Source of the DNA: Thermoanaerobaculia bacterium
GTDB lineage: Bacteria > Acidobacteriota > Thermoanaerobaculia > Gp7-AA8
Length of the DNA stretch: 37,310 nt
Direction of reading: 5' to 3'
NCBI GenBank assembly: GCA_017883205.1
Contig: JADGNZ010000058.1
Coordinates: 1-37,310, forward strand
In this document: positions 24,127 through 37,310 of the stretch, piece by piece
Numbering within the stretch: position 1 is the first letter of the stretch
Layout of the letters: every line of letters starts with the position of its first letter
The notes under the pieces: generated by a model
Told to the model about the DNA's origin: nothing
Seen by the model: only the letters and a program-made list of their open reading frames with translations
The model's database searches: none
Made by a program: the position numbers and the translations under genes

Positions 24127-24206
24127 AAACCATCACCACAGAGACTCAGAGGTCACAGAGAAACGGTCTCATCTCTGTGACCTCTGAGTCTCTGTGGTGA
24201 TGGTTT
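24127..24206. repeat. perfect 35-bp palindrome (CACAGAG type)
   Basis: The left arm (24127-24161) and right arm (24172-24206) are exact reverse complements across a 10-nt loop. Each arm contains ATCACCACAGAGACTCAGAG and GTCACAGAGA. The right arm ends on the first base of the stop codon of the tRNA-binding gene, so the transcript of that gene ends in an 80-nt hairpin. It lies between two minus-strand transcription units and probably separates them. Confidence 0.95.
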
Positions 24207-27900: not shown

Positions 27901-30900
27901 CTATCTCAACGCGGCCAGCGTCGCCGATCTGGCGCTCTCCGTCGATCAGAAGGAGATCGTCGTTCCGCCGCTGAGGAATGTCGTTGATGTTTCCGTGAAA
28001 CCTGACCGCGAGCAATACCAGCCTCGGGAGGAAGGAACGCTCACCGTCACGACGCGCGACGCCGACGGCAAGCCGTTGTCTGCCGAGGTCGGACTCGGAT
28101 TCGTCGACGACTCCGTCTACGCGATTCAGAGCGACTTCGCCGGCGATCCTCGGCAGTTCTTCTTCGGCACCAAGCGCAGCGCGAATGTTCAAACCTCGGC
28201 CAGCGTGCAGCAGGGACGCTACGCAAAATTCATCCTCGATGACGGGAAAGTCGTCGACGAGCGGATGATCGGGCAGATCGCGGATGAGCGTGCGAAGAAC
28301 GAGGCTCTCAAGAAGGACGGAGTGGATTTCGACCGGGCATGGATCGGTGGAGTAGCCGGCGGTGCGGTCGCGGAAGCGATCACGGTGACGGCGGCGGCAC
28401 CGGCGCTGAGCAGGGAAATGGCTAAATCTGCGTCCATGCCGGTGATGGCGCCACCGCCTCCGCCGTCCGCTCCCAAGCCGGTCGTTAGTCAAGGCGGAGC
28501 GGCCGAGCCTGCGGTTCAGGTCCGCAACGACTTCCGCTCCACCATCATCTGGCAGCCCGATGTGAAGACCGACGCGAACGGCGTTGCCACGATCAAGATC
28601 ACCTATCCCGACTCGCTGACCACATGGCGCGCCACCGCACGCGCGGCCTCGGCAACGAACCAGTTCGGCATGGCCACGAGCACGGCGCGCACGAAGAAGC
28701 CGCTCATCGTGCGGCTGGAAGGCCCGCGCTTCTTCGTCGTTGGCGACCGCGTCACCATCTCCGCGGTCATCGACAACAACACCGACGCGCCGATGCAGGT
28801 GCGGCCGTCGCTCCACCACGGCGGTCTGACGCGGATCGACCCGTTGGCCACCGGACAGCGGTCGCTGCACGAGGACCCGCTCGTCGACGTCCCCGCAAAC
28901 GGCGAGACGCGCGTCGACTGGCTCCTCGGCGTTGAAGCTCCGGGCACGGCCAGTCTGCAGGTTAGTGCACACGGCGAGAAGTACTCCGACGCCATGGAGA
29001 AGACGTTCCCGATCTACGATCACGGCATCGACAAGCTGATCGCGAAGTCCGGCCGCATGCGCGGCGACGACGCGGTGATCAAGCTCGATCTTCCGGCCGA
29101 GCGCCGCGTCGGATCGACCAACGTCACCATTCAAGTCACGCCGAGCCTGGCCGTGACCATGCTCGACGCGCTTCCATACCTCATCGACTATCCCTACGGC
29201 TGCACCGAACAGACCATGAGCCGCTTCCTCCCCGCCGCGATCGTCGCCCGCACGCTACGCGGCATCGGCGCCGATCCCGCCGACATCGCCGGGCGCATGT
29301 TCGGCGGCATCGAAGCCAGCACCGCCTCCGAGACGCACCCGAAAGGTAAGCACGACCTCGGTGAGCTCGATCGCATCACCGCCGCAGGCATGAAGCGCCT
29401 CTACGACTTCCAGCACGACGACGGCGGCTGGGGCTGGTGGAAGGAGGGGAGCAGCGATCCCTACATGACCGCCTACGTCATCTGGGGCTTCGCCGTCGCC
29501 CGCGAAGGCGGCCTCTCCATTCACACGCAAGCAGTCGAGAACGCCGCCAACTGGCTCGACACGAAACTCGTGAACTACGAAACGAACCGCGAAGAACAAG
29601 CCTGGCTCCTCCACGCCCTCGCCGCCTGGCGCAGAGCCCACCCTGGGACCGCGGGCGTCTCGCCCGCCGTTCCCCGGAAGACCGCCGCGCCGAACGCACT
29701 AGAAACCAAAGCCCTCGACAACGTCTGGGAGCATCGCGAGAAACTCACCTCCTACGCCCGCGCCATCTTCGCCCTGGCCGAGAACGACTTCGGCAACGCC
29801 GAGCGAGCCAACATCCTCATAAGAAACCTCGAGAACGGCGTCCGCATCGACCGCGCTCCCGACGCCTCGGTGCTCATTCACGGCGAGAACGGCCGTACCG
29901 CGAGCAGCGCCGAGACCATGGCCACCGCCCACTGGGGCGAGGACGGCATGTGGTGGCGCTGGTCCGACGGCCCCGTCGAGTCGACGTCATTCGCCCTGAT
30001 GGCCCTCGTCGAGATCGATCCCCAGAACAAACTGATCGAGCCGGTAACGAACTGGCTGATCAAGAACCGTCGCGGCGCGCAGTGGAACAACACAAGGGAC
30101 ACCGCCATCACCATCCTCGCCCTGGACGAATACCTACACGCCAGCGGCGAGCTGACCAGCGAAGCCACCTACGAGATCACCGCCAACGGCGTCCCCATCG
30201 CCACGCAAACCGTGAAGCCCTCCGAGATCCTGCGCGCCCCAAGCCGCTGGACGATCCCCGCGAACGTGATCGGGGAGGGGAGCGGCGTCCCAATCCGCGC
30301 GGCCGTATTCGATCGATCCCCGAAGCTTCCCTCCGAGTCTCGGGAGCAGACGCAATCGCCGAATGAGGCAGCGAGTCACATGCAGTCCGGATCGCAGGAG
30401 CAGGCAAGTACGCAAGCGCAGACACAGACGTCCGCGGGTACGCAATCCCATCCTCCACTCCCCACCCCCCACACTCCACCCCCCCTAACGATCCACATCC
30501 ACAAGACCGGCACGGGTACGCTCTACTTCGCCGCCGAGGCCAGATTCTTCTCGCTCGAAGAACCAATCAAAGCCGCCGGCAACGAGATCTTCGTCCGCCG
30601 CGACTACTACCACCTCGTCGGCCATCCCACGCTGCTCAAGGGACAGGTTTACGACAAAGTCCCCCTGCGCGACGGCGAGACCATCAACAGCGGCGAACGA
30701 GTGGAAGTCGTCGTCACCGTCGAAACGAAGAACGACTACGAATACCTCCTCTTCGAAGACCTCAAACCCGCCGGCCTGGAAGCAGTAGAGATCCAAAGCG
30801 GCCAGCCGCTCTATGCCACGGAACTCAAATCCGGCGCAGTGACCCGAAAGTTCGTGGAAGCGAAGCGCCCCGCAATGGGAAAGCCGTCAGTCATCCAACG

Positions 30901-31129
30901 CAACCCCAACACCGACACCACCGGCCGCACCGAGTGGCTCTACCAGGAGCTGAGAGACCGCAAAGTAGCCATCTTCGCCTCCCAATTCCCCCAGGGAATC
31001 TGGGAAATCCGCTACACCCTCCGCGCCGAAGTCCCGGGCTTCTTCCACGCGCTGCCGTTGATGGGTCAGGCGATGTACGTTCCGGAGATTCGGGCGAATA
31101 GCGAGGAGGTAAGGGTGGGAGTGAAGTGA
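24944..31129 (+). CDS. giant secreted alpha-2-macroglobulin-family protein
   Basis: 2,061 residues from a GTG at 24944 (GGGGG 5 bases upstream). The signal peptide is about 1-32, with no lipobox Cys. Residues 35-280 are TPR-like helices (YARAHELYAKVKQE). Macroglobulin domains follow, with DRPAYRPEETVQWKF near 521-535. An Ala/Pro-rich stretch (about 1150-1190) precedes the alpha-2-macroglobulin core at about 1195-1235 (FRSTIIWQPDVKTD). The thioester domain has the intact motif YGCTEQTMSRF, with C1420 and Q1423. The protein should trap proteases covalently in the periplasm. Two low-complexity inserts break the conserved sequence: AGVSPAV at 1570-1576 and a Gln/Ser/Pro stretch at about 1800-1848. 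Part of its 3' end is duplicated at 36363-36857. Confidence 0.9.
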   Translation: MNLAALVFSTLSFLPIPGNIFFGTAVPVATAGTSSYQTLRREAEVAIGERSYARAHELYAKVKQESLQPEEKRWVRFRLADTFWRAEANDPKSDNTGVAKARDELLALLREAGDDHDKLWAEVNESLGDFASSPVNTGLSPMSYYEAALDWWAGSDDIANARSHYLGIVRSFTSSDDDYLYGVPQQISIDVFENAAKIAVTPSDRQTFRYILGVRLFNSGDQDRVGEELEAAIREGNVSKHYDNALIMYGRWLERQGRVVILEDGRAQRRADYTKALVMYRRILSEFANGESRFRDEARSAVERITSPTVSVQVSNVFLPDSEVEFALSWRNVKSIDLTLSAIDLTSDVNLNASPSWLASITAPPSASVRNWKKETEDKGDHEPGSDHIRIDPKLPAGAYLLQANGGGTSERALVLITDASVVVRTDMSKVVVFACSALTGAPIANARLRVWERHGEDGHDLAHSFDATTNADGLAEVSLGQTQYMNLFAAIAQGNGRQAFATASKGGRYGEQDQWRIYAYTDRPAYRPEETVQWKFTARRFEGETPTNPAGATLHYTITDPRGTKVADGSAKLNAFGSAWGSLPLTATMPLGVYDISFRDGKNDVGSAQLFRLEEYKLPELKVEVHTPEENGKKKLFRLGDTIEASIDASYYYGGPVANAKVEAVVYSRPYTRWWWRPRDYAWLYANATEPNNYYGNGQIIKREALTTDANGHAVIHLPTQRDGNEVQYRIEARVTDASRREITGSGSVRVTRQRYLVHADPEHYVYQPNQKATIDFKAIDANDNPVHASGTVTITRDWWDESWIDPQGREVSGAELERVRGTMRIFPPKPHDPCGWQLKSRGYKHEDVLTMKSETDANGEAKVTFTPSRDGYYRVSWSSPDRDPSKPNAPLAQRDVVTTETTVWVVSHDVRDIGYRHDGVEIIVDDAAFRAGQTAPVMIVTPTSNRWVLFSVDAESILDYRLVHVEGTVKLIEIPIEEKHVPNAYLNAASVADLALSVDQKEIVVPPLRNVVDVSVKPDREQYQPREEGTLTVTTRDADGKPLSAEVGLGFVDDSVYAIQSDFAGDPRQFFFGTKRSANVQTSASVQQGRYAKFILDDGKVVDERMIGQIADERAKNEALKKDGVDFDRAWIGGVAGGAVAEAITVTAAAPALSREMAKSASMPVMAPPPPPSAPKPVVSQGGAAEPAVQVRNDFRSTIIWQPDVKTDANGVATIKITYPDSLTTWRATARAASATNQFGMATSTARTKKPLIVRLEGPRFFVVGDRVTISAVIDNNTDAPMQVRPSLHHGGLTRIDPLATGQRSLHEDPLVDVPANGETRVDWLLGVEAPGTASLQVSAHGEKYSDAMEKTFPIYDHGIDKLIAKSGRMRGDDAVIKLDLPAERRVGSTNVTIQVTPSLAVTMLDALPYLIDYPYGCTEQTMSRFLPAAIVARTLRGIGADPADIAGRMFGGIEASTASETHPKGKHDLGELDRITAAGMKRLYDFQHDDGGWGWWKEGSSDPYMTAYVIWGFAVAREGGLSIHTQAVENAANWLDTKLVNYETNREEQAWLLHALAAWRRAHPGTAGVSPAVPRKTAAPNALETKALDNVWEHREKLTSYARAIFALAENDFGNAERANILIRNLENGVRIDRAPDASVLIHGENGRTASSAETMATAHWGEDGMWWRWSDGPVESTSFALMALVEIDPQNKLIEPVTNWLIKNRRGAQWNNTRDTAITILALDEYLHASGELTSEATYEITANGVPIATQTVKPSEILRAPSRWTIPANVIGEGSGVPIRAAVFDRSPKLPSESREQTQSPNEAASHMQSGSQEQASTQAQTQTSAGTQSHPPLPTPHTPPPLTIHIHKTGTGTLYFAAEARFFSLEEPIKAAGNEIFVRRDYYHLVGHPTLLKGQVYDKVPLRDGETINSGERVEVVVTVETKNDYEYLLFEDLKPAGLEAVEIQSGQPLYATELKSGAVTRKFVEAKRPAMGKPSVIQRNPNTDTTGRTEWLYQELRDRKVAIFASQFPQGIWEIRYTLRAEVPGFFHALPLMGQAMYVPEIRANSEEVRVGVK
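29651..29667. repeat. TCT-loop hairpin inserted in frame in the A2M gene
   Basis: GCGGGCG-TCT-CGCCCGC, identical to 15365-15381. It begins exactly on a codon and is read as A-G-V-S-P-A, between an Ala-Trp-Arg helix and a Pro/Lys/Thr stretch of the thioester domain. It probably sits in a surface loop. Confidence 0.85.
30446..30486. repeat. C-rich tract inside the A2M gene
   Basis: CATCCTCCACTCCCCACCCC and the following ACACTCCACC-CCCCC encode SHPPLPTPHTPPPL. The wording matches the C-rich half of the tract in the aconitase-family gene (19161-19200), including PPLPTPHTP. The G-rich half is absent here. Confidence 0.75.
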
Positions 31130-31171
31130 AGAGAATCCGTGCGGTTCCAACGGACGGCATCAAGTTCAAGC

Positions 31172-31222
31172 GCGGCGGAACGCCGCCGTCTCGGCGGCTG
31201 GCCCGGCGGCGTCCCGCCGCCG
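31172..31222. repeat. cluster of CCGCCG/CGGCGG hairpins between convergent genes
   Basis: Three short stems follow one another: GGCGG-AAC-GCCGCC, GCCGCC-GTCTC-GGCGGC and GGCGGC-GTCCC-GCCGCC. They share the GTCTC/GTCCC loop style of the hairpins at 15365 and 29651. They lie in the 128-base gap between the A2M stop and the vapC stop and so can end transcription from both sides. Confidence 0.75.
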
Positions 31223-31257
31223 TTCTGACTGCCGACCCTGAGATTCGTCTGCTCTGC

Positions 31258-31647
31258 TCACCACACGTGCAGATCCAAGCCGGCGATTTCCTTGAAGTGC
31301 GGATCGCGAGACACGACGGTCACACGATGTTGCATTGCTACCGCAGCGATCCAGATGTCATTCTCTGGAATCGGTCGGCCTTTCGCGCGCAGGTGATTCT
31401 TGATCACCCCGTAATGTCTTGCGGTGCCGGCATCGCACGCAAGGACTGCCGCATTCTGAGCGAACTGATCGATTTTCGCGATGTTCTCCGCGATGCGTTC
31501 CGACTTATGGGCGCCATATTGGAGCTCGCCGAGAACGATGGCGGCAACGAAAACCTCCTCAGCTTCGACGAGATGCTCGAGGACAGACTTCGTCTCTGCG
31601 AACAGGGCGATGACGATATTCGTGTCGAGAAGGAACCTACCACTCAT
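31258..31647 (-). CDS. vapC: PIN-domain toxin, VapC-like
   Basis: 129 residues, complete PIN domain. The acidic residues of the active site are present: D8 (FLLDTN), E41 (VLGELQYG), D97 (ENDIWIA) and D115 (VVSRDPHF). VapC proteins are Mg2+-dependent ribonucleases, mostly cutting tRNA or rRNA. The start codon overlaps the end of the antitoxin gene by 11 bases, the normal coupled arrangement. It converges on the A2M gene across a hairpin cluster. Confidence 0.85.
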   Translation of the reverse strand: MSGRFLLDTNIVIALFAETKSVLEHLVEAEEVFVAAIVLGELQYGAHKSERIAENIAKIDQFAQNAAVLACDAGTARHYGVIKNHLRAKGRPIPENDIWIAAVAMQHRVTVVSRDPHFKEIAGLDLHVW

Positions 31648-31864
31648 CGGGATTGACCTGCTCGCAGCCGGCCTCGATTGCCCTCTCGATGAGCGTCAAA
31701 TCGCTTCGTCCTATCACTCCGCTGAGATGGATCAGCGACTTGCCCGGAAGCCCACGAACGTCCTTTGCAGTTAGGGCGCGGGCGAAGTTGAGCACCCGCT
31801 GCTGCCCATCGGCGTCCATCCGGCTGAGCTGTTGATGAAGCTCGTTTTCTATCGCAGGGTTCAC
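31637..31864 (-). CDS. vapB: antitoxin partner of the VapC-like toxin
   Basis: 75 residues from a GTG at 31864. GGGAGG at 31874-31879 lies 9 bases upstream, and TATAAT at 31885-31890 lies just before that. The N-terminal half is helical (LHQQLSRMDADGQQRVLNFARAL); the C-terminal half (GKSLIHLSGVIGRSDLTLIERAIE) resembles antitoxins of PIN toxins in which the tail wraps the toxin. It is not a clear AbrB or RHH type by eye, so the vapB name rests mainly on its place before vapC. Confidence 0.7.
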   Translation of the reverse strand: MNPAIENELHQQLSRMDADGQQRVLNFARALTAKDVRGLPGKSLIHLSGVIGRSDLTLIERAIEAGCEQVNPDEW

Positions 31865-31884
31865 GCTCGCAGCCTCCCAATCTA

Positions 31885-31890
31885 TTATAC
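31885..31890 (-). promoter_or_regulatory. -10 box of the vapBC-like operon
   Basis: Reads TATAAT on the minus strand, 20 bases before the GTG start, with GGGAGG in between. The -35 region is not consensus. Such operons are usually autoregulated by the toxin-antitoxin complex, and no operator palindrome was recognised. Confidence 0.45.
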
Positions 31891-31922
31891 GTGCAAGAGA
31901 GCTAACGGTTGGTGGGCTGGCT

Positions 31923-33620
31923 TTGACAGATACTCCTGAAGCTCGGCACCGGTGGCTGCTCCGGCTCGGCGCCCGACTGAACGGCGACGGCGTGCTTTAT
32001 TGCGCCTTGCTCCTTCTGGTTTGGGGGCTGACCGTGCCATGGCGCGGCCTGTGGCAGGACGACACCGCGTTGCTGCGGGTGGCGCGCGACCATCAAGGCC
32101 ATGGTTTCCTGGCCGCTCTGACCCCGGTCGTCGCCCCCATGCGGCGCCTCTATGCACTGCCGTTCCGCCTGGCGCTCGCAACGCCGCAGCCCATCTGGAC
32201 CCTGCACCTGATCTTCGGCGTGACGTGGCTCGGGCAGGCTCTTGCCGCCGGCTGGATCGCCCGGCTGCTGCTGCCGGGAAGGCGGCTCACTCAGTTCCTG
32301 GCGATCTGCCTGACGCTCACGGCGACTAGTGACTACCTGACCAACAACCTCACGTCTCTGGGATACAACATCAGCGCGCTCATGCTGTTGCTCGCCGTCG
32401 GCTGCAGCCTGCGCTACGTGACGGGCGGGAGCGCCGGCTGGATCGCGATTGCGTGCGCGGCTACGACGGTCAGCATCTGGACGGTCGACGTCGCGATCCC
32501 GGCACTGCCGTTCCTGCCGCTGCTCCTGTTCTGGCGTCGCGGTACAGAGGAGTGGCGCCGGATTCTTGTTGTGCTGTCGGCGCTCGGTCTCACCCTTGCT
32601 CCCGCTGTTCCGATCGAGTGGCGATTTCTGCACGACGCCTCCGGTTATGCGGCGGTGGCGATGCAACCGATGCGTCTCGCGGAGCGTCTTCATCGCACGG
32701 CAAGCCTGTGGCTCGAGAACTTCAGACCGTGGCGCTGGGCCTTTGCACACCCAACCTGGTATCCCAGGCCGCCGGCGGCGATCCCGCTGTGGGTAATGGG
32801 ACTCGCTGCCGGAGTGGCGGCGGCGTGGTTCGGGTTCCGGGCACGGCAGTCACAGAATCCGGATCGGCCCGAGCGTGCCGCCCGGTTACTCCTGTTGGCT
32901 GGGATATTCGCGGCGATGGCCCTGGCTGCGAATGCTGCGTATGCCGCGCTTCAGATGGCCGAGGTTCACTATCGCACGCACATCCTGTCGCGCACGTGGG
33001 CGTCGCTGGCGGTCGCCGTTCTGACCGGCTGGGCGATGCAACAATGGCCTCGCTTCCGGACCGCATTTCTGCTCGTGCCTGTCCTCTTTGTCGGTTTCGG
33101 AGTCTGGGGAGGCCTGGAGCGTCAGGACCTCTGGGTCTCGACCTGGCGGCTGCACAAGAAAGAGCTCCTGTCGATCGTCACCACCGCCCCAGCCTTGACA
33201 CCGGGCACTGGTATCATCCTCCGCAGCCCACCCACGCCGGATCTGTATCTCGCGACCGAGGCCGACTATCTGGCTCAAAGCTGGCTCATATTGCTCTATG
33301 ACGACCCTGCCATACACGCCCTGCGCATGGCCCCCGACCGAGGGACGGGTTGCCGCGCCACACCCGAGGGGCTCGACTGCTGGCACGAGCAGCAGGCCGA
33401 GTGCTTCGACGCTGGCACGTGTGCGGTCGATCGCTTTCCCTACGAGACCCTGGTGATCCTGGACTTCGACAATCGGAGAGGAACCTGGCGGTTGGTTTCC
33501 ACTCCGCAGGGTGACCCTCTATTGGGCGGATCCGCCGCGGCGCTTGCGGGCTATCGGCCCGCCGGCCGTATCGTGGAACGTCCGTTGACGCCGCGGCAGC
33601 GCGCCCTGTTGCTGGAGTAG
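31923..33620 (+). CDS. multi-pass membrane protein, GT-C glycosyltransferase-like
   Basis: 565 residues from a TTG at 31923; no stronger start is close. About nine or ten membrane helices lie in residues 20-400 (for example LYCALLLLVWGLTV, ALPFLPLLLFW, AAGVAAAWFGF, FLLVPVLFVGFGVWGG), then a soluble C-terminal domain of about 160 residues with paired Cys. The first periplasmic loop has GLWQDDTALLR; an acidic pair after the first helix is the usual catalytic mark of GT-C enzymes, which use lipid-linked sugars. It is the first gene of a four-gene plus-strand cassette, 13 bases from the next. Confidence 0.7.
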   Translation: MTDTPEARHRWLLRLGARLNGDGVLYCALLLLVWGLTVPWRGLWQDDTALLRVARDHQGHGFLAALTPVVAPMRRLYALPFRLALATPQPIWTLHLIFGVTWLGQALAAGWIARLLLPGRRLTQFLAICLTLTATSDYLTNNLTSLGYNISALMLLLAVGCSLRYVTGGSAGWIAIACAATTVSIWTVDVAIPALPFLPLLLFWRRGTEEWRRILVVLSALGLTLAPAVPIEWRFLHDASGYAAVAMQPMRLAERLHRTASLWLENFRPWRWAFAHPTWYPRPPAAIPLWVMGLAAGVAAAWFGFRARQSQNPDRPERAARLLLLAGIFAAMALAANAAYAALQMAEVHYRTHILSRTWASLAVAVLTGWAMQQWPRFRTAFLLVPVLFVGFGVWGGLERQDLWVSTWRLHKKELLSIVTTAPALTPGTGIILRSPPTPDLYLATEADYLAQSWLILLYDDPAIHALRMAPDRGTGCRATPEGLDCWHEQQAECFDAGTCAVDRFPYETLVILDFDNRRGTWRLVSTPQGDPLLGGSAAALAGYRPAGRIVERPLTPRQRALLLE

Positions 33621-33633
33621 GTGAGGGCTCCTC

Positions 33634-34359
33634 ATGCGCCCGGAGTTCTCCGTCGTCGTCTTGTGCTACCGCTCCGGCGCCGCCGCGCGCTCCTTCGCCG
33701 CACGCATCAGTAAGGCCCTGCTCGATACGGGCGTCGACAACTATCAGCTCGTGCTGGTTGGCAACTATGTGGCCGGTTCCGACGACACGACCCCGGACGT
33801 GGTGCGGGAGCTGGCAGCCGGTGACTCGCGCATCGTCTGCTCGGCGGTAGAGAAGCAGGGGATGATGGGTTGGGACTTGCGCAGCGGATTGGCTCTCGCT
33901 ACCGGTGAGTATCTGGCGGTCATCGACGGCGATGGCCAGGTTCTGGTCGAGGATCTGGTGCGGATTTACCGGCTGCTCCGCGAACAAGGGCTCGATCTGG
34001 CGAAGACGTATCGCAGGCAGCGCGGCGACGGCATCAAGCGCAAGCTCTTTTCGCTGGTCTTCAACGGGCTCTTTCATATTCTCTTCCCCGGGGTTCCGTC
34101 GCGGGACATCAACGCCAAGCCGAAGATTCTGACTCGCGCGGCCTTCGAGCGGATGACCCTGCAATCCACCGACTGGTTCATCGACGCCGAGATCATGATC
34201 CAGGCTCGCAGTCTTGGACTTCGCATCGGCGAGACGGAAACAGAGTTCCTCGGTCTAACCGGCCGGCGTTCCTTCATCAAGTTGGCGGCTGTCTTCGAGT
34301 TCCTGCGCAATCTTGTGCGCTACCGGATCATGGAGCTCCGGCGGCGGGGCAAGAAATGA
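33634..34359 (+). CDS. GT2-family glycosyltransferase (polyprenyl-phosphate sugar synthase type)
   Basis: 241 residues. GT-A fold: FSVVVLCYRSG at the start, the DxD metal motif IDGDGQ (D98, D100), and a later acidic residue in TDWFIDAEIM (D184). Length and the absence of C-terminal membrane helices fit dolichol- or undecaprenyl-phosphate hexose synthases such as GtrB-like or Dpm1-like enzymes, which make the lipid-linked sugar used by GT-C enzymes. That would suit the neighbouring gene. The sugar is not predictable. Its stop overlaps the next start by 4 bases (ATGA). Confidence 0.85.
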   Translation: MRPEFSVVVLCYRSGAAARSFAARISKALLDTGVDNYQLVLVGNYVAGSDDTTPDVVRELAAGDSRIVCSAVEKQGMMGWDLRSGLALATGEYLAVIDGDGQVLVEDLVRIYRLLREQGLDLAKTYRRQRGDGIKRKLFSLVFNGLFHILFPGVPSRDINAKPKILTRAAFERMTLQSTDWFIDAEIMIQARSLGLRIGETETEFLGLTGRRSFIKLAAVFEFLRNLVRYRIMELRRRGKK

Positions 34360-35261
34360 GGCTCCTGGTGACAGGCCCCGGGCGCCTCGGCCGCCCCTTG
34401 CTGGCAGAGCTGCACAGGCGAGGCATCACCGGCGCGGTTCTGCATCGCAGCGCGCCGGCTTCCCTCCCGCCCGGCTGGCGGTCCGTTCGCGCCGACGTGA
34501 CGCGGCCGGAGAGCCTTGCGGGAGTATGCGCGGAGTGCGATCAAGTCCTCCACCTGGCGGCCGTCACGCACTCCAACCGGAGCAACCGCTACGCCGAGGT
34601 CAATGCTCTCGGCACACGGAATCTGGTCGCTGAGGCACGGCGGGCCGGCGTCCAGCGGTTCACTCTGGTGAGCACGCGCGCGATCGACCCCGCGGGCGGC
34701 GCCTACAGCCAATCCAAGATCCAGGCCGAAGAGATCGTTCGGGATTCGGGTCTGGCCTGGAACATCCTGCGGCCCGCCGAAGTCTATGGCATGGTTGATG
34801 GCACGGGCGGTGAGGGCATCTCGGCGTTGATCGAACGCTGCCGCCTGGGCCGCTGGGTTCCGATCGCCGGCGACGGCAGCCCGAAGCTGGCGCCGGTCTA
34901 TCTCGACGACGTCATCGACGGCATGTGCCGCGTCGTCGCGGCACCAGGTCACGGCGGTGTGCACGTGCTCGCGGGGCCTGAGGAAATGAGCTACGTCCAA
35001 CTAATCCGCCGTCTGGCGGCCTACTTCGACACGCGTCCGCGGACGATCGGTGTGCCTGCCGGCATGTTGGCGCTCGCCGCTCGGGTGCTCGCGCTTCTGC
35101 CGCTCGATAAGCCACCGCTCTATGCCGACCAGGTGGCGCGCCTGTTCAGTCCGAAGAGCCACGACACGAAGAGTGCGTTTCTGGCCTTCGGTTTCACCGC
35201 CCGGCCGCTCGAGCAGGGCCTGAACGCAATCTTCCATCCACGACAGCAGGCCCTGGCTTGA
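34356..35261 (+). CDS. NAD(P)-dependent epimerase/dehydratase (extended SDR)
   Basis: 301 residues. The Rossmann dinucleotide loop is TGPGRLGRP (6-14), near the usual TGxxGxxG. The active-site residues are S106 and Y117-x-x-x-K121 (AYSQSKIQAE). Extended SDR enzymes of this kind alter nucleotide sugars or lipid-linked sugars. Both ends overlap neighbours by 4 bases (34356-34359 and 35258-35261), so the operon is tightly coupled. The substrate is unknown, probably a sugar made or used by the GT2 and GT-C proteins. Confidence 0.85.
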   Translation: MRLLVTGPGRLGRPLLAELHRRGITGAVLHRSAPASLPPGWRSVRADVTRPESLAGVCAECDQVLHLAAVTHSNRSNRYAEVNALGTRNLVAEARRAGVQRFTLVSTRAIDPAGGAYSQSKIQAEEIVRDSGLAWNILRPAEVYGMVDGTGGEGISALIERCRLGRWVPIAGDGSPKLAPVYLDDVIDGMCRVVAAPGHGGVHVLAGPEEMSYVQLIRRLAAYFDTRPRTIGVPAGMLALAARVLALLPLDKPPLYADQVARLFSPKSHDTKSAFLAFGFTARPLEQGLNAIFHPRQQALA

Positions 35262-35932
35262 GCTTCGACGAGCACAGCGCGGACTACTCGCAGAAGATGG
35301 ACCGTGCCTTGACGGTCGTCGGCCTCGAACATGATTTCTTTATCGAGGCCAAGGTGCCGCACATCCTTGAAGCAAGGCGCCGCCTGCCGGCAAATGCTGC
35401 GGTGCGTGTGCTTGAGATCGGCTGCGGCATCGGCTTGATTACCCAGCGCCTGCGTCCGCTACTGACCGACGTCTGGGGGATCGACCCCTCCATCTCCAGC
35501 CTCGGCCACGCCGCAGCGCGCGGTGGCCAGATGATCGCGGCGGACGGCCTCCGCACGCCGTTCGCCGATGAGACCTTCGACCTGGTGATCGCCGTTTGCG
35601 TTCTCCACCACGTGCCCGTCGACCAGCGTGCCGCCTTCCTGGCCGAGGCGGCGCGCATCACCCGGCGCGGCGGCATCGTCCTGCTGTGCGAGCACAACCC
35701 GTGGAATCCCCTGACCCGCCTCGTAGTCGGCCGCTGCGAGCTCGACCGCGATGCGATCTTACTGCCGCAGACCGAAGCCAGACGCCGCCTCACCACCGCC
35801 GGCCTCTCCAACATCCGCTCCCGCTACATTCTCTTCTTCCCCTGGCGCGGAGCCGTCTGGCGCTGGCTCGAATCGCACCTCGCCTGGCTCCCCCTCGGCG
35901 GCCAATACGTGATCGACGCCGTGCGGAGGTGA
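35258..35932 (+). CDS. class I SAM-dependent methyltransferase
   Basis: 224 residues from a TTG at 35258 inside the previous stop codon. Motif I is VLEIGCGIG (51-59), with the acidic residue D76 (WGIDPS) at the end of strand 2, then ADGLRTPFADETFDLVIAVCVLHHVP, typical of Methyltransf_11 enzymes. A C-terminal hydrophobic patch (YILFFPWRGAVWRWL) suggests contact with membrane or a lipid substrate. It is the last gene of the four-gene cassette. It might methylate a sugar or a lipid carrier; this is inference from the neighbours. Confidence 0.85.
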   Translation: MSFDEHSADYSQKMDRALTVVGLEHDFFIEAKVPHILEARRRLPANAAVRVLEIGCGIGLITQRLRPLLTDVWGIDPSISSLGHAAARGGQMIAADGLRTPFADETFDLVIAVCVLHHVPVDQRAAFLAEAARITRRGGIVLLCEHNPWNPLTRLVVGRCELDRDAILLPQTEARRRLTTAGLSNIRSRYILFFPWRGAVWRWLESHLAWLPLGGQYVIDAVRR

Positions 35933-35980
35933 GTGGGGAGTTTGTTGTAAGTAGGGCGCCGCTACGTGACGAGGATCGGG

Positions 35981-36286
35981 TTACGTACCCTTGCCCGACG
36001 GTTCGTAGGAGGCATGAGCCTCCACATAGATCCGCAGTGCTGCATTGATGAGCCGCTCGTACTGTGCGCTTTGATTCCGGAACCAACGAAGAAGCAACGG
36101 ATCGATATGGAGCGTCACCTCAGCGAGGGGCAGACTCGGCATCCGCGCGGTTGCTGGAACGAAGAACGCGTCGTCGAGGATTGGGCTCTCGGAAGTGTCG
36201 ATCTCGGCATCCGAGAGCGCTGCGACCTTAGGCAGTCGGTTCTGGAGGTAGGTGTCAAAGCTCGATTCACGTTGGCATCGTCCCAC
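35981..36286 (-). CDS. brnA: BrnA-like antitoxin
   Basis: 101 residues from a GTG at 36286; the true start may be later, since the first 20 residues are atypical. LSDAEIDTSESPILDDAFF and VTLHIDPLLLRWFRNQ with YERLINAALRIYVEA match the BrnA pattern: an acidic LSDAEIDTS linker, then a C-terminal ribbon-helix-helix. BrnA represses its own operon and neutralises BrnT. No intact brnT is present. Just upstream, from a GTG at 36297 in another frame, SLKWDDANVNR is reminiscent of the first strand of BrnT but soon becomes unrelated sequence, so the toxin gene may have been deleted. Confidence 0.65.
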   Translation of the reverse strand: MGRCQRESSFDTYLQNRLPKVAALSDAEIDTSESPILDDAFFVPATARMPSLPLAEVTLHIDPLLLRWFRNQSAQYERLINAALRIYVEAHASYEPSGKGT

Positions 36287-36304
36287 TTGAGAGACACGAT
36301 TTGA

Positions 36305-36310
36305 ATTGTA
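36305..36310 (-). promoter_or_regulatory. possible -10 box for the brnA-like gene
   Basis: Reads TACAAT on the minus strand, 18 bases before the GTG at 36286 and 7 bases before the other-frame GTG at 36297. No convincing -35 was found. Confidence 0.3.
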
Positions 36311-36362
36311 GCCCGCGCCGGGTAGGTGGTGGTTGGGTCAGGTTCCCTCTTCATCTGGGCTT

Positions 36363-36857
36363 CTCCTACTTCGCCGCCGAGATCCGATTCTTCTCGCTCG
36401 GAACCGAGCAAAGTCGGCAACAGATCTTCGTCCGCCGCGACTACTACCACCTCGTCGGCCACCCCACACTCCTGAAGGGAAAGGTCTACGGCCGTCTTCC
36501 CTGCGACCGCGAAACCATCGCTTGGTGGGAGCGCGTCGAAGTCGTTGACAGCGTCGAAACGAAGAACGACTAGTAGTACCTCCTCTTCGAAGACCAACCC
36601 ACCGCCTGCCTCGAGGCAGTAGTGATCCAAAGAGGCACGCCGCTCTACGCCACCGAACTGAAGCCGGGCGTAGTGACCCGACAGTTTGTCGAAGCAAAGC
36701 GCACCGCAAAGGGAAAAACCTCAGTCATCCAACGCAACCCCAATACCGTAACCATCGGCCGCAGGGGTTGGCTCCGTCCCACCCTCACACCGATGGGAAA
36801 GTCAAATGTACGTCCGGGAGACTCGGGCGAATTGTGAGGAGCTGAGATGGGAGTGAA
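36363..36857 (+). pseudogene. decayed duplicate of the 3' end of the A2M gene
   Basis: The frame reads YFAAEIRFFSL and QIFVRRDYYHLVGHPTLLKG, nearly the same as residues of about 1860-1900 of the A2M protein encoded at 30521 onward. Two in-frame stops (TAGTAG after VETKND, at 36571-36576) replace Tyr-Glu. Homology resumes with LYATELKPGVVTRQFVEAKR and SVIQRNPNT, then the segment corresponding to parent 30940-31050 is deleted, and the last 70 bases (around TACGTCCGGGAGACTCGGGC) match the end of the parent. There is no start signal, so the piece is not expressed as a protein. Confidence 0.9.
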
Positions 36858-37121
36858 TTTGGGTGAAGTGAGGGTGGCCCGCCCCAACAGTCTCGCGTGC
36901 GCATGAACGTAAGTGTATGCCACCGGTGGATGGTTCCATGCCACGCGCCTTCGATGCGCCCACCTTCGACACCAGGACACGCCGGCAGCCAGGAAACCCT
37001 TCATTTTTGAACTAGATGCCGACCAATGGTTGATTTTTCAACTTCCCTGCGTACCAGCACATCTGCTAAACTGCCGTTGGTCCATCCACAAAAAGATCTA
37101 GATAACGAAGCGGAGGTGCGA
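36858..37121. other. intergenic stretch before the TIR-like gene
   Basis: No gene or strong repeat was seen. From about 36990 on, the DNA becomes more AT-rich (for example TTGATTTTTCAACTTCC near 37030), as expected of a promoter region for the downstream gene, but no -35/-10 pair with standard spacing could be assigned. Confidence 0.4.
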
Positions 37122-37310
37122 GTGCGCACGAAGATATTTGTCTCGTATTGTCATGACGACGTCGCACCTGATGACGGCCGTTTGCGCGTGCTGCTTACTG
37201 CGCTAAAAGACGCCTCCTCGCTATCGCAGGTGGGTAACATTGAGTTCGAGCTTGCCGGCGATGAGATAGACCATGGCGATGAGATTGCGGGAGGTTCTGT
37301 AGCCGCGAGC
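37122..37310 (+). CDS. TIR-like domain protein (3' partial)
   Basis: An open frame of 63 codons from a GTG at 37122 runs off the window. GGAGG at 37112-37116 lies 5 bases upstream, which fixes the start. The N-terminus RTKIFVSYCHDDVAPDDGR is the first strand and loop of a TIR domain (typical form K-x-F-[IV]-S-Y-x-x-x-D). Further on, FELAGDEIDHGDEI has the form of the D-x-x-I-x-x-G-D-x-x loop of bacterial TIR proteins. The catalytic Glu of NAD+-cleaving TIRs lies beyond the window. Bacterial TIR proteins often act in anti-phage defence; the partner domain or gene cannot be seen. Confidence 0.7.
   Translation, partial: MRTKIFVSYCHDDVAPDDGRLRVLLTALKDASSLSQVGNIEFELAGDEIDHGDEIAGGSVAAS

Follow-up and report, generated by a model that had tools for sequence, protein, structure and literature searches.

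A decayed partial copy of an alpha-2-macroglobulin gene beside a glycan cassette in a Thermoanaerobaculia bacterium

Mobile elements that target tRNA genes duplicate the 3' end of the gene that they enter and displace the original end to their far side, and partial gene duplication is one kind of origin of bacterial pseudogenes. We describe here a locus that invites comparison with both. The window is a stretch of 37,310 nucleotides, the whole of contig C105 in a draft genome of 6.37 Mb and 105 contigs from a Thermoanaerobaculia bacterium, in which a gene for a bacterial alpha-2-macroglobulin (A2M) is followed by a toxin-antitoxin pair, a glycan cassette, an antitoxin-like gene and then a fragment of the A2M gene's own 3' end (Table 1). 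The papers that full-text searches brought up deal mostly with pseudogenes and duplications of eukaryotes, and none of them bears on this case. We think it quite probable that the fragment is a pseudogene left when the A2M 3' end was partly duplicated in this lineage, together with a rearrangement, separate or joint, that moved a cassette native to the genus. In what follows G000 is the genome of the window and G001 and G002 are the two other members of the genus that were compared, G002 being its sister genome.

Table 1. Features of the A2M locus and of the DNA to its right, in window coordinates
Feature	Position	Strand	Basis
Intact parent, bacterial alpha-2-macroglobulin, 2061 aa	24944-31129	+	Pfam, codon-position pattern, G002 ortholog
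In-frame low-complexity insertion in the parent, 231 nt	30259-30489	+	Missing from G002 (30 nt there)
Copied part of the parent, from the C-terminal bMG10 region to the stop codon	30523-31129	+	Alignments
Dispersed REP-like palindrome, left edge of the cassette block	31169-31226		Repeat matches, hairpin test
PIN-domain toxin and small partner gene (vapBC-like pair)	31258-31864	-	Pfam, G002 match
Cassette: 565-aa protein without Pfam family, GT2 glycosyltransferase, NAD-dependent epimerase, methyltransferase	31923-35932	+	Pfam scan
BrnA-like antitoxin gene	35981-36286	-	PF14384, E 7.7e-4, 20.2 bits, below the curated cut-off of 26.1
Decayed partial copy of the A2M 3' end	36358-36857	+	Alignments; outermost bases approximate
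Probable end of an ISL3-like IS, transposase C-terminus, at the contig end	37212-37310	-	Shared suffix, peptide match

The A2M gene and its truncated copy

The parent gene encodes a protein with the Pfam domains MG2, bMG5, bait region, A2M, a thioester domain with the motif GCTEQ, and bMG10, and a weaker bMG3 that falls below the Pfam cut-off; its ortholog in G002 has 80% protein identity to it. Upstream of the gene there is a perfect 35-nt inverted repeat with a 10-nt loop (24127-24206), and a segment within it (24135-24198) recurs on contig C49 of the same genome at 86% identity.

The earlier note on this DNA had described the fragment as a decayed 3' copy in the same orientation as the parent, with two stops and an internal deletion, and both the alignments and the reading of the frame confirm this description; the limits given for it, 36363-36857, are correct to within a few bases. 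In pairwise alignment, parent positions 30523-30940 match 36366-36774 with 341 of 405 aligned bases identical (84%) and 17 gap positions, and the 3' tip (parent 31073-31113 against 36806-36846) is 83% identical. Between these two parts, 132 nt of the parent (30941-31072) are replaced in the copy by 31 nt (36775-36805), which amounts to a net internal deletion of about 100 nt between 36774 and 36806, and there are small indels besides. Two adjacent stops, TAG TAG, stand at 36571-36576 in the A2M frame, and the frame of the 3' tip differs from that of the part before 36774. The copy lies 5.73-5.84 kb from the parent and its right end coincides almost exactly with the parent's stop codon, and the DNA to the right of the copy shows no match to that on the right of the parent beyond a few bases past the stop. 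The properties that mark a pseudogene are thus found together here, namely homology to an intact parent, a disrupted frame, and substitutions free of coding constraint (see below).

In a blastn search of its own whole genome, the copy matches the parent at 81% identity (E 1.7e-104; best 40 of 193 candidates), and in this and the pairwise alignment it differs from the parent at 16-19% of bases. So large a difference speaks against an assembly duplicate, and about 450 nt separate the copy from the contig end; that the locus is an artefact joining unrelated contigs, as a draft in 105 contigs and a contig ending at a repeat might suggest, is barely credible. The same search gave 33 matches among the best 40 of 193 candidates, and besides parent and copy the other 31 are pieces of one dispersed repeat spanning 27-49 query bases. 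A protein search of the genome with the copied region, with all nine candidates scored, returned the parent, the copy, whose match contains '2 TAG', and a single distant paralog (G000:C54:45937-46095, 32% identity over 53 residues in a 2028-aa frame), so that with every candidate scored the fragment is the sole close second copy in its genome. Distant A2M paralogs similar to the one on C54 occur in many relatives.

The parent carries an in-frame insertion that ends about 30 nt before the copied segment starts, and the 3' part of this insertion holds a dispersed repeat of the CCCCACTCC type, for which about 30 other places in the genome are listed (best 40 of 193 candidates). The position of the insertion next to the start of the copied part may be a coincidence, or it may be the mark of the same unstable place.

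A DNA search of 60 genomes, the own genome included, gave matches in 11, nine of which are real A2M 3' ends, and a protein search of the 60 with all candidates scored found a close A2M (at least 66% identity) in the same nine. A close second copy is present in one of these nine genomes and in none of the eight relatives. Paired matches in G003, G004, G009 and G012 are pieces of one gene each, the second match in G006 (G006:C306) is a 99-nt exact contig overlap that we treated as an assembly overlap, and rows of 30-33 nt in the DNA search (G013, G026 and G003:C357) were treated as chance. The protein search matched 36 of the 60 genomes in all, mostly weakly (29-42% identity) and inside long open frames, and we read these weak matches as distant A2M paralogs and did not count them with the close copies. 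The DNA searches of the genomes scored a part of the candidates (9 or 40 of many), and their absences weigh less than those from the fully scored protein searches or from the search with 36840-37215 described below.

Age and mode of decay

Substitutions were polarised with G002, the one outgroup of the genus, G001 having no close A2M ortholog and only a distant paralog in the protein search. The 397 sites counted exclude those gapped in any of the three sequences and those outside parent positions 30523-30940. Fifty changes are unique to the copy and are distributed uniformly over codon positions (15/17/18, p 0.88), whereas the 19 unique to the parent are not (4/2/13, p 0.005); G002 has 64 unique changes (16/10/38), and six sites differ in all three sequences. 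Because the copy-unique changes are even over codon positions and the parent-unique changes look coding, the copy has decayed without visible coding constraint since its origin, whereas the parent has changed under such constraint. It was apparently without coding function from the start and has been decaying neutrally, and we take it to have no function. A functional second A2M gene was considered and is rejected by the even counts.

These counts also bear on the idea that the fragment is what remains of a complete second A2M gene, a full tandem paralog that lost its 5' part to the cassette. Copy and parent are 5.7-5.8 kb apart, a distance close to the 6.2 kb of the gene, as such a paralog would give, but the 15/17/18 distribution leaves little room for a functional phase, and a search covering the A2M 3' region found no further close pieces of it in the genome. 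We consider this origin quite improbable.

In a tree of ten sequences, built from 503 columns with the less certain tails included, copy and parent are joined with an SH-aLRT value of 88 and a bootstrap value of 88, a support for the grouping that is not decisive, and the branch of the copy (0.281) is much longer than that of the parent (0.039). By blastn the copy has 72.5% identity to the G002 gene, and the parent has 79%. A foreign origin of the copy was rejected on these grounds, its own parent being nearer (81%) than G002 (72.5%) and the tree agreeing. With support of 88/88, the tree places the duplication after the split from G002. Judged from third-position counts, 13 in the parent against 38 in G002, it would date to about half the age of that split (13 against the mean of 13 and 38), an estimate from small numbers that assumes a constant rate.

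The cassette block and its place in the genus

The DNA between parent and copy holds seven proteins that were scanned with Pfam. The PIN gene (31258-31647) matches PF01850 with an E value of 7.5e-19 and its partner belongs to no Pfam family; the partner gene and both ends of the PIN gene are present on G002:C166. Beside the BrnA-like gene no BrnT was recognised in the scan of the seven proteins; from operon order we would expect the BrnT toxin gene on the side where the A2M copy lies. A stretch 76% identical to the BrnA-like gene is found on G000:C54, and no full-length frame is listed over it.

DNA 88-90% identical to the cassette (31910-35933) is present on G002:C152, and G001 has the first two cassette genes at 79-84% identity, so that the cassette is represented in all three genus genomes compared and its last two genes in two only. 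A protein search with the first cassette gene found it in 6 of 60 genomes at E <=1e-20, including both other genus members and its own genome, where it occurs just once. Because it is present, in whole or in part, in all three genus genomes compared, the cassette is by this distribution not a recent import. In G002 the start of the cassette is repeated about 6.6 kb away (176 nt, 91%), and a 200-nt inner piece of its first gene is repeated as well, also at 91% (L040:12601-14460 and L041:343-518).

The cassette of G001 and that of G002 are both linked to a different block of genes, a contiguity that depends on exact overlaps of contig ends (147 nt between C90 and C181 in G001, 88 nt between C152 and C166 in G002). 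By way of the join in G001, the cassette directly adjoins the block on C181 from base 804. The G002 relative of that block (C166:6838-10374) is separated from the full cassette by about 13 kb, which hold the toxin-antitoxin genes and another, partial copy of the cassette start. The counterpart of the cassette-linked block in the own genome lies on contig C49, and the cassette has no match in either of the two stretches of C49 compared. The G002 A2M gene is followed over 11.9 kb by DNA that matches neither the cassette nor the sequence right of 36857, and the only match of 31130-37310 within the G002 A2M locus is that of the A2M copy to the gene itself. Since the cassette in G001 and G002 lies away from A2M and is linked to a block whose counterpart here is on C49, it probably moved next to A2M in this lineage, with G001 and G002 presumably keeping the older arrangement. 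The alternative, that G001 and G002 share a derived order, is less likely than a move of the cassette.

At the left edge of the cassette block, 31169-31226 takes up at least 40 of the 44 own-genome matches of 31130-37310 (best 40 of 203 candidates), it folds into a hairpin with z = -3.07 (one of 200 shuffles was as good), and the genome has 15 Y1_Tnp (RAYT-type) genes; a palindrome dispersed in this way, in a genome that also encodes RAYT-type transposases, is what one expects of a REP. The homology of the moved block to G002 starts at 31226, the end of this palindrome. At the right, the last 99 nt of the contig are identical to the end of C23 (G000:C23:112683-112781), and the 29-aa peptide that they encode matches Acidithiobacillus transposases over 25 of 29 residues at 64-68% identity (E 2e-3 at best), most of them annotated as ISL3-like, with no Pfam match for the peptide; the remainder of the element would lie beyond the contig. 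The ISL3-like sequence follows, and may truncate, a reading frame from 37116 whose beginning we take to resemble a TIR domain, for which Pfam gave no support.

The intervening segment, 36840-37215, matches only itself in the three genus genomes with all candidates scored, and the DNA right of the copy has no match in the A2M loci of eight relatives, so that these comparisons did not reveal the native A2M flank. The earlier note had asked whether the A2M gene of relatives sits directly beside the DNA right of 36857, and it does so in none of these loci, the A2M flank of G002 matching neither side.

Direct repeats of at least 150 nt, shorter matches having been dropped, occur in 8 of 14 genus stretches surveyed (192,725 bases from three genomes), and many of them are short-period tandem arrays. 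Such repeat debris is not rare here, though few instances are a dispersed decayed gene piece like the A2M copy. Elsewhere in the window, 11500-12736 and 13553-14786, each of about 1.24 kb, are 70% identical in direct orientation and are perhaps tandem paralogs.

Origin of the fragment and comparison with described systems

The earlier note had proposed that the accessory block arrived by, or is bounded by, a duplication of the A2M end such as integrating elements produce. One part of this holds, in that the cassette is probably new beside A2M; the evidence does not support the other part, an integrating element that duplicates its target. Such an element, carrying the cassette, would have inserted at the 3' end of A2M and brought a new end with it, so that the original one came to lie on the far side. 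The geometry fits, with a copy that starts mid-gene and ends at the stop and with the cassette between, and so does the probable newness of the cassette at A2M. However, no integrase was found among the seven block proteins scanned (31258-36286; overlapping ORFs lie outside the scan), and the four boundary pairs share no words of at least 8 nt other than the homologous gene tail, although shorter or imperfect cores could escape such a comparison, so that the direct repeats anticipated at the ends of the duplication did not appear. No empty site was found in relatives, and G001 and G002 have the block at another place. The three genus genomes compared share the cassette, and its location away from A2M in G001 and G002 had been named beforehand as an observation that would speak against the idea. 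The A2M 3' end does not look foreign either. The parent 3' end shows no sign of another ancestry, its identity to G002, 79.1%, being close to the 79.2% of the remainder of the gene; nor does the copy show a coding-like phase, and therefore the two ends would have been nearly the same sequence when they parted. For want of an integrase, boundary repeats and a foreign-looking 3' end, and with a block native to the genus, this was rejected as the leading reading, and we regard it as highly improbable.

A tandem duplication of a unit running from the A2M interior through the cassette, with later loss of the second cassette, would place the cassette at A2M before the duplication. The direct orientation is as such an event would leave it, a single joint near 36358 would suffice, and local direct repeats are frequent in the genus stretches surveyed; but the flank right of the copy is unlike that of the parent, which means that a second cassette and the spacer must have been wholly lost. 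We consider this unlikely, if still worth keeping in mind.

The reading that we prefer, a partial duplication together with a moved cassette, has the following steps. The A2M 3' end would have been partly duplicated in this lineage after the split from G002, and the fragment, without coding function from the start, would then have decayed neutrally. A rearrangement would have brought the genus's own toxin-antitoxin and glycan cassette from elsewhere to the 3' side of A2M, presumably through ordinary recombination or repair in repeat-rich DNA, with the REP-like palindrome at the left and the ISL3-like element beyond the copy. The duplication and the relocation may or may not have been one event. 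Comparable debris is present in G002, where the 200-nt inner piece and the 176-nt start of the cassette are repeated. Against this reading, a random duplication would not have to end almost exactly at the parent's stop, as this copy does, and an insertion that G002 lacks ends about 30 nt before the start of the copied segment; a single targeted event would also give both. The locus, moreover, lies at the end of a draft contig.

It is also conceivable, if very doubtful, that whatever moves cassettes in this genus leaves a partial copy of a neighbouring or target gene behind. If so, both the A2M 3' fragment and the 176-nt repeat of the cassette start in G002 would be its footprints, and such copies would let gene relocation be traced in the little-studied Acidobacteriota. 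By itself the fragment, most likely a defunct and commonplace one, means little, and the gain from the comparison is that a relocated glycan cassette native to the genus is kept from being mistaken for an integrated island.

Set beside the described systems, the locus resembles integrative elements with target 3'-end duplication in the mid-gene start of the copy, its end at the stop and the genes lying between, and it departs from them in that no integrase was found in the scanned proteins, no att core was found and the block is native to the genus. With bacterial pseudogenes that arise from partial gene duplication it shares truncation, stops, indels, a neutral codon-position pattern and closeness to the parent, and we see no difference in kind between these and the A2M fragment.
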